Shown here: piece after piece, positions 41,020 to 43,131 of the stretch
Layout of the letters: each line of letters begins with the position of its first letter
Position numbering within the stretch: position 1 is the stretch's first letter
Origin: Halohasta litchfieldiae
GTDB taxonomy: Archaea > Halobacteriota > Halobacteria > Halobacteriales > Haloferacaceae
Reading direction: 5' to 3'
DNA: 64,000 bases
NCBI RefSeq assembly: GCF_002788215.1
Contig: NZ_CP024845.1
Span: forward strand, 1,550,001-1,614,000
Program-made: the position numbers and the translations under genes
The notes under the pieces: model-generated
Database searches by the model: none
What the model was told of the DNA's origin: nothing
Seen by the model: the letters and a program-made list of their open reading frames with translations, nothing else

Positions 41020-41325
41020 TCAGTCCCATGTAACCCACAGCAGGAACCCGAGGGCGACCGTCTGAAAGACGTGGAGCACGATGTTCGCGGTCCACGCCTG
41101 AGGTGGCATATCGGTCGCAAACCACGAGGCGAGCACCGGATGAAGCACGTAAAAGTACAGCGTCAGGCCGTTCTGGGCGAGCAGCACGGCTCCGAAGACC
41201 GCCAGTCCGATGGCGTGTTTCGATCTGAACGTCCGGTAGTTCCGGAACCAGATAGCTGTCAGTACGAACAGCATGAGCACGTTCAACAAGACGCTGACGC
41301 GTGCGATAGCTATCCAGTCGATCAT
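41020..41325 (-). CDS. Small three-span membrane protein
   Basis: 101 aa from the ATG at 41325. Three hydrophobic helices (about 8-24, 37-58, 76-98) with short charged loops; the start MIDWIAIARVSVLLNVLMLF is typical of haloarchaeal membrane proteins encoded beside winged-helix regulators. The regulator gene upstream ends 31 bases before this ATG. Possibly controlled by, or signalling to, it. Confidence 0.75.
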   Translation of the reverse strand: MIDWIAIARVSVLLNVLMLFVLTAIWFRNYRTFRSKHAIGLAVFGAVLLAQNGLTLYFYVLHPVLASWFATDMPPQAWTANIVLHVFQTVALGFLLWVTWD

Positions 41326-41356: not shown

Positions 41357-41635
41357 TCATAGTGGTAGTTCCTCCGCGATCTCCTCGATGAGGTCCCAGT
41401 TCCGTTCGGCCCCCTCTGTCGGAGAGTAGACCGCGCCGTAGTTGTCGCCCGTTTTCTTGAGTATCCCGTGTTTCTGGAGGACATCCAAGTGATGACGGAT
41501 CGTCGAGTAATCGAGCTCCAGTGTCTCGGCAAGTTGGTTCGCGTTCCGCGGCCGTTCGTCGACCGCCCGCAGGATGCGGACGCGGTTCGGACCTCCCCGG
41601 GTACCGGTCAACACGTACCACAGGACGGCCTCCAT
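41357..41635 (-). CDS. Winged-helix (ArsR-like) regulator
   Basis: 92 aa. GGPNRVRILRAVDERPRNANQLAETLELDYSTIRHHLDVLQKHGILKK gives a complete winged helix with an HxH in the recognition helix, and NYGAVYSPT is the wing. No metal-binding cysteines. Likely a transcription regulator for itself and the membrane protein downstream (inference). Confidence 0.88.
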   Translation of the reverse strand: MEAVLWYVLTGTRGGPNRVRILRAVDERPRNANQLAETLELDYSTIRHHLDVLQKHGILKKTGDNYGAVYSPTEGAERNWDLIEEIAEELPL

Positions 41636-41694: not shown

Positions 41695-42417
41695 TTACTC
41701 GGCGTCGACGACGAGATCGAGGTCGAATGGCTCGTCGGCCGGGGCGTCGTCCGGAGCAAGATAGCCGACTGCGAAGCCGGAGTAGACCACGCCGGCCTCA
41801 GGTGCGACATCGAAGGTGGCGACGACATCGCCATCGTTGTTCTCGGTCGCAGGCCGGACTTCGAGTTCGTACTCGCCCGGGGGTACCTCGACGGCTCCGG
41901 CCGCCCCGAATGGAACATCGGTGAAGAGGGCATCGCCACCCGCAGTCACGTCGACGTTCGGCGCGTCGGGCGCGGCGTGGACCAACCTGATCCGGGCGTT
42001 GTCACCCGGGTCCGAGACGTCGTCCTCGTAGACCTCGACCGCGAACGGCTGATTCTCGTCGGTGAGTTCGCCGACTGCCGCCACGGTAAACTCACCGGCT
42101 GGGACTTCGAGTGCCTCGTCGAAGACGACCGTCTCAATGTCGCCTGCGGCGGTGATCATGACATCGTACGTGCCTGCGGTGAGTTCGAGATAGTCGCTGA
42201 CCGTCCGGTAGGGGACGTCTTCGAGCACCGCATCGCCGTCGAGATAGACGTCGACGTTCGGCGCGTCGGGCGAAAGATGGGCGACCCGGAGACTGGCGTC
42301 CATTTCCCCTTCGGAGCCGTCCATCTCGTCCTCGGATTCGTTCATCTCGTCATCCGATCCATCCATCTCCTCGTCGCTGGAATCGTCGGTCGACCCCGAA
42401 TCGGCTCCGCCACCCAT
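41695..42417 (-). CDS. DUF4397 domain protein (probable lipoprotein missing its signal peptide)
   Basis: 240 aa as the only intact frame from an ATG. An acidic linker (DGSDDEMNESEDEMDGSEGEMD) leads to two DUF4397 repeats: LRVAHLSPDAPNVDVYLDG and IRLVHAAPDAPNVDVTAGG. The family is mostly extracytoplasmic, and the natural start appears to lie upstream: codons 42418-42492 read like a Tat lipoprotein signal with LAGC just before this ATG, but an in-frame TGA interrupts it. So either the protein is now made without a signal or the gene is a recent pseudogene. Confidence 0.85.
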   Translation of the reverse strand: MGGGADSGSTDDSSDEEMDGSDDEMNESEDEMDGSEGEMDASLRVAHLSPDAPNVDVYLDGDAVLEDVPYRTVSDYLELTAGTYDVMITAAGDIETVVFDEALEVPAGEFTVAAVGELTDENQPFAVEVYEDDVSDPGDNARIRLVHAAPDAPNVDVTAGGDALFTDVPFGAAGAVEVPPGEYELEVRPATENNDGDVVATFDVAPEAGVVYSGFAVGYLAPDDAPADEPFDLDLVVDAE

Positions 42418-42492
42418 ACACCCAGCAAGGGAACCAACTACAGCTACGCCACCAACCGACTTCAGTACCGTTCGTCACTTTTGGTTTGACAT
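42418..42492 (-). other. Tat lipoprotein signal interrupted by TGA
   Basis: From the ATG at 42492 the frame reads MSNQK, then TGA at 42475-42477, then RTVLKSVGGVAVVGSLAGC, immediately followed by the DUF4397 ORF. With CGA in place of TGA this would be KRRTVLK plus a lipobox LAGC, a textbook haloarchaeal Tat signal. No other start codon is available between the TGA and the ATG at 42417. Confidence 0.7.
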
Positions 42493-42675
42493 GTGCGTCT
42501 CTACCGACGGTGAGCGGCCTCATGAACTATTTCCGGAGTCTCTCGGGGGTCGCGCCCGGATCAGGCCCCTGTTCGACCGAACTCTCTCCCAAATTCGACC
42601 CGAAACCGACAGCATGATTCCAATTGAGAAGTAGCTACGCGCCGTCGTATTCGAAAAGAAAGCGATCAGACTGGG

Positions 42676-43131
42676 TTAGGCTGGTTTGTTTTCCAGCTGT
42701 TCGAAGACGGTTTCGACCATCTTTCCGGTCTCGTCAATAATATCATCGAGTTCCTCGTCATCGGTCGACATCCCGAGCAATCGCGCAATTTTCATGATAC
42801 TGACGTGGTAGACACGCTGGACGCCCGGTTCAGCCTGCCAGATCACCATATTACAGGGAAACAGCGCGCCGATCTTGCCGCCGGTAGCGTCGAGGGCTCG
42901 GTCGGCCATCTTCGGGTTGCAGGCCCCCAACACGTAGTAGGGCTCGCGGTCGGCGTCGACCTTCTCGTTGAGCATCTTCGAGGGCGAAAACTCCGCGGGG
43001 AAGCCGAAGCCAGCCTCCTCGCAGACCGCCCGCACGTACTGGATGGCCTCCTCGTGATCCATTTCGAGGGTTGCCTGTTGCTCGCCGAAATCCTCGGGGT
43101 CGACCGTTGCGGGATCAAATGGCAGTGACAT
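42676..43131 (-). CDS. DUF302 family protein
   Basis: 151 aa from the ATG at 43131. DUF302 hallmarks: EEAIQYVRAVCEEAGFGFPAEF, YYVLGACNPKMADRALDATGGKIGALFPCNMVIWQ. Two cysteines (GACN and FPCN) are conserved in the family. The C-terminal tail (DDEELDDIIDETGKMVETVFEQLE) is an amphipathic helix. Role not established. Confidence 0.9.
   Translation of the reverse strand: MSLPFDPATVDPEDFGEQQATLEMDHEEAIQYVRAVCEEAGFGFPAEFSPSKMLNEKVDADREPYYVLGACNPKMADRALDATGGKIGALFPCNMVIWQAEPGVQRVYHVSIMKIARLLGMSTDDEELDDIIDETGKMVETVFEQLENKPA

Follow-up and report, generated by a model that had tools for sequence, protein, structure and literature searches.

Why does a gene that would otherwise begin as an ordinary haloarchaeal Tat lipoprotein carry an in-frame TGA exactly where the first arginine of its twin-arginine motif belongs? 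The question arises in Halohasta litchfieldiae, in a window of 64,000 nucleotides (positions 1,550,001 to 1,614,000 of contig NZ_CP024845.1). An initial annotation of this window raised three possible answers: a phase-like switch for export, a recent pseudogene, or a sequencing error. The interruption is probably a nonsense mutation of recent date, CGA to TGA, in a Tat lipoprotein gene that is not essential, and would represent gene loss. The ancestral gene would have encoded a Tat-exported, lipid-anchored surface protein with two DUF4397 beta-sandwich units, and a single C-to-T transition would have changed its first twin-arginine codon from CGA to TGA. A ribosome that starts at the native ATG would then stop after five residues, and a product restarted at the ATG at 42417, lacking both the signal peptide and the lipobox cysteine, would remain in the cytoplasm without an anchor. 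In this genome the gene would be functionally lost while further damage has not yet gathered.

The interrupted reading frame

Read directly, the minus strand runs ATG (42492-42490), TCA AAC CAA AAG, TGA (42477-42475), CGA ACG GTA CTG AAG and onward to the lipobox codons CTT GCT GGG TGT (42429-42418), which adjoin an ATG at 42417-42415. The frame from this second ATG is open up to the stop at 41695. Translated through the interruption, the sequence gives MSNQK, the stop, RTVLKSVGGVAVVGSLAGC and then MGGG, and the initial description of the frame (MSNQK-TGA-RTVLK...LAGC followed by an intact ORF of 240 codons), which named no strand, is accurate. A functional haloarchaeal Tat lipoprotein needs a twin arginine continuous with its start codon, and here TGA, at codon 6, takes the place of the first arginine. 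The hydrophobic stretch and the [L][A][G]C lipobox that should follow are both present (VGGVAVVGSLAGC) and align to those of intact orthologues. The parts of the gene and its surroundings are collected in Table 1.

Three candidate starts were considered and rejected. Between the TGA and the lipobox there is no in-frame ATG, GTG or TTG; a GTG that overlaps the TGA is in the wrong frame; and an upstream ATG at 42523 belongs to another frame. Relatives keep the TTCAT block that holds this last ATG without keeping the ATG itself (TTCATAG in L010, TTCATCA in L027), so the block at 42523 is probably a promoter element and not a start.

The 240-residue ORF is the in-frame remainder of the interrupted gene and no gene of its own. 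The ORF that a gene finder would report at this place belongs to a headless lipoprotein and should not be taken for a cytoplasmic protein; annotators should flag it as a pseudogene or look for a sequence error.

Table 1. Features of the interrupted lipoprotein gene and its neighbourhood (positions in the window)
Feature	Position	Strand	Evidence
Original start codon (ATG) of the DUF4397 lipoprotein gene	42490..42492	-	Homologous start in L009/L021, L022, L023, L025, L027 and L010
Premature TGA, codon 6, replacing the first Arg of the twin-arginine motif	42475..42477	-	Direct reading; CGA/CGG in 6/6 aligned orthologues
Remaining Tat signal peptide: second Arg (CGA), hydrophobic stretch, lipobox LAGC	42418..42474	-	Direct reading; gap-free alignment to orthologues
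In-frame remainder, 240 codons: acidic linker and two beta-sandwich DUF4397 units	41695..42417	-	Pfam, AlphaFold2, dN/dS
Conserved upstream element CGAATTTGGGAGAGA	42583..42597	-	Orthologue alignment; only copy in genome
Second conserved upstream element GGAAATAGTTCAT, ~30 bases before start, probable promoter part	42522..42534	-	Orthologue alignment
ArsR-type winged-helix protein, downstream conserved neighbour	41357..41635	-	PF01022, E 9.4e-12; synteny in H. salina, Halonotius, Halorubrum and G003
Small predicted membrane protein, conserved neighbour	41020..41325	-	ORF and synteny
DUF302 gene, upstream, conserved neighbour in H. salina	42676..43131	-	PF03625, E 1.2e-15

Orthologues, flanking DNA and the age of the stop

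The nearest named relative at the locus is Halohasta salina, whose syntenic gene is the orthologue. It reads MSNHKRRTILKSVGGVAVVGTLAGC from the homologous ATG, so the alignment is no chance resemblance. We aligned six orthologues in all: those of H. salina (L009/L021), the Halohasta-like genome G003 (L010), two Halonotius species (L022, L023) and Halorubrum (L025, L027). The homologous ATG is the start in every one, and both arginines are present, encoded by CGACGG in H. salina, CGACGA in both Halonotius species and G003, and CGGCGG and CGGCGA in Halorubrum. The first arginine is accordingly CGA in four orthologues and CGG in the two from Halorubrum, and TGA is found at this codon in none of the orthologues examined. 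The initial annotation had proposed this comparison, and its view that a Tat lipoprotein signal is cut at the first arginine is borne out; with Arg-Arg at this position in the orthologues, one C-to-T change is the simplest account. It had also named two observations that would speak against this, orthologues that start at the ATG at 42417 and a different upstream frame bearing the signal. Neither was found: the internal ATG is absent from all six (ACG in H. salina), and no other upstream frame carries the signal.

The missing ATG also bears on the idea that a short cytoplasmic DUF4397 form is made purposely from 42417, by reinitiation after the five-residue peptide. This ATG is in frame, 57 bases past the stop, and the remainder behind it carries no further damage. 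Termination-reinitiation is moreover known in Haloferax volcanii, where it occurs at overlapping stop/start pairs (PMC6728339). However, it was overlapping pairs that were tested in that work, which expects reinitiation to drop as the distance grows; upstream of the ATG at 42417 no Shine-Dalgarno match at a suitable spacing can be seen, and the domain architecture, with an acidic linker after the lipobox, is of the surface-protein type. Purposeful reinitiation is therefore improbable.

The DNA around the gene is conserved as well. In H. salina the gene is preceded by DUF5789 and DUF302 genes and followed by those for the ArsR-type winged-helix protein and the small membrane protein, and at least the downstream neighbourhood is kept in Halonotius, Halorubrum and G003. 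Two upstream blocks, CGAATTTGGGARAGA and GGAAATNGTTCAT, are kept across Halohasta, Halonotius and Halorubrum (upstream of L009, L022, L023, L025 and L027) and are intact in the window. A genome scan allowing one mismatch found a single copy of CGAATTTGGGARAGA, which may therefore serve a regulator of its own; the adjoining ArsR-type protein is one candidate.

Compared with H. salina, the remainder of the gene shows a dN of 0.10 and a dS of 0.60; the resulting ratio of 0.17 was shaped mainly before the stop arose, so that it supports recency but cannot prove present function or its loss. Amino-acid changes are not in excess on the window branch (40 N to 45 S, versus 21 N to 19 S on the H. salina branch), and the 240 open codons contain no further stop or frameshift. 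The combination of intact conserved upstream DNA and a constrained downstream frame indicates that the break would be recent, in keeping with the initial impression that decay had barely begun. The gene can evidently be lost: in G001, another member of the genus (99% complete), the best match is 61% and belongs to another orthologue group, leaving that genome without a close orthologue.

In these respects the locus resembles other recent single-nonsense pseudogenes, with one point change to a stop, the rest of the frame and the promoter intact, intact orthologues, and absence of the gene from another species of the genus. The sole difference is the location of the stop inside the Tat motif, a location that is likely given the codons the gene contains (see below). 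With six intact orthologues, visible constraint, and synteny and upstream elements retained, the recent pseudogene is the reading that we favour among those first put forward. If the allele varies in the natural population, it would offer a small and clean example of surface-protein loss through one base.

A single substitution in an otherwise fully constrained gene and promoter is also what a consensus error would look like, the organism truly having an arginine codon and an intact gene. This is the main rival, and we regard it as unlikely. Among the conserved genes of the window that can be compared with H. salina, we saw no other with a true internal stop, which favours an error at this one; other apparent stops relative to H. 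salina, at 23-24 kb and 29.3 kb, proved to be shadow frames or to lie before the real start. On the other side, the genome is one closed contig of 3,332,022 bases, 99% complete, and finished genomes contain few substitution errors and fewer still that create stops.

A stop at the twin-arginine motif

The exact placement of the TGA might seem to call for a special explanation. Counting the TGA as CGA, only four codons lie one transition away from a stop (two CGA, one CAA, one CAG and no TGG). Both CGA codons are the twin arginines, and the CAA is codon 4. Of nonsense mutations by transition, about half would be expected to strike one or other of the twin arginines and a quarter the first arginine, so the position is unremarkable.

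We also surveyed 392 genomes of the order for the pattern TGACGNNNNNTNNTN...LAGC, that is, TGA-Arg-x-phi-phi...LAGC. The pattern hit 35 of the 392 genomes, and nearly all of the 35 matches were discarded because they are out of frame, have no start, or have a separate start beyond the TGA (L111, L112, L122, L123). After the frame and start filter, in which the in-frame matches in G125 and G331 were judged from the match sequence alone, three cases of start-TGA-Arg-lipobox were left: the window, L118 and L161. The CGA version of the pattern gave 317 matches in 40 genomes, or about 3,100 expected in 392. A TGA at the first-arginine position is thus rare and sporadic, as for random nonsense mutations, and nothing suggests that the stop is recoded or under selection.

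The two other cases differ in their state. L118, near position 1500 on the reverse strand in G108, is a Tat lipoprotein remnant (MTDQSSTN-TGA-RQFLAASTTAGLALLAGC) with its stop at the first arginine and a frame otherwise wrecked, one instance elsewhere of the same event with decay advanced. L161 (G022:C21:83821) reads MR-TGA-RAFLGTAGATVAGLAGC in a 96-codon frame from a 63%-complete genome; here the choice lies between a further broken Tat lipoprotein and an error of assembly.

The survey likewise weighs on the suggestion that suppression or recoding of the TGA still allows some protein to be exported. On either side of the TGA the frame is clean, and a TGA followed by C is a leaky context in other organisms. 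Against this, the TGA is not conserved in orthologues, as a recoded stop would be, and at this motif position it is about as rare as sporadic damage. Among the 46 tRNA genes found there is none with a TCA anticodon (an opal suppressor), in a search that may miss intron-bearing tRNAs such as that for Trp, and there is no Rfam match near the site. Moreover, insertion of any residue except arginine would break the RR pair. Twin-lysine mutants served to test Tat dependence in Hfx. volcanii (PMC2945643). Suppression or recoding is accordingly very improbable. It is slightly harder still to credit that the TGA is a true maintained allele acting as an export dial, with mostly unanchored or cytoplasmic protein and a rare read-through or reinitiation product.

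Least credible of all is a reversible off-switch, or phase variation, of surface display, as the initial annotation had entertained. The location of the stop within the export signal is its only support. There is no repeat tract and no pair of short invertible arms at the site, and no donor or second copy exists in the genome within 3 mismatches of 28 bases; reversion would require the exact point mutation, and none of the orthologues examined carries the TGA.

The DUF4397 protein

The remainder matches DUF4397 (Pfam PF14344) over two stretches, with an E value of 5.8e-45 and a score of 153.1 bits against a gathering cut-off of 30.6. An AlphaFold2 model of residues encoded by 41695-42417 (md32b23e1ef61, built from 29 relatives) has a mean pLDDT of 86.8 and a pTM of 0.75; the acidic linker is not to be trusted in it, and from residue 40 onward it predicts an all-beta structure. 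The two tandem units are as in the DUF4397 family, and the domain itself shows no difference, only the signal peptide being interrupted.

With the haloarchaeal Tat lipoproteins (PMC2945643) the gene has in common a short n-region, an arginine at +1 of the motif, a hydrophobic stretch and the LAGC lipobox, followed by an acidic low-complexity linker and a folded surface domain. These features are intact in all close orthologues, and the difference here is that the first arginine codon is TGA.

In the H. salina orthologue (about L021:4947-6353) the entire two-unit DUF4397 region is duplicated in tandem within the gene. Unlike the window gene, this orthologue therefore carries two fused copies, read as a single frame of about 470 codons; the identity of each to the window protein is 84-88%.

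A search of solved structures by sequence returned no match to the DUF4397 pair. By fold, the pair resembles the extracellular domains of the mammalian peptide transporters PepT1 and PepT2 (Foldseek best E 4e-9), whose entries mostly have TM-scores of 0.5-0.6 to the query at low sequence identity.
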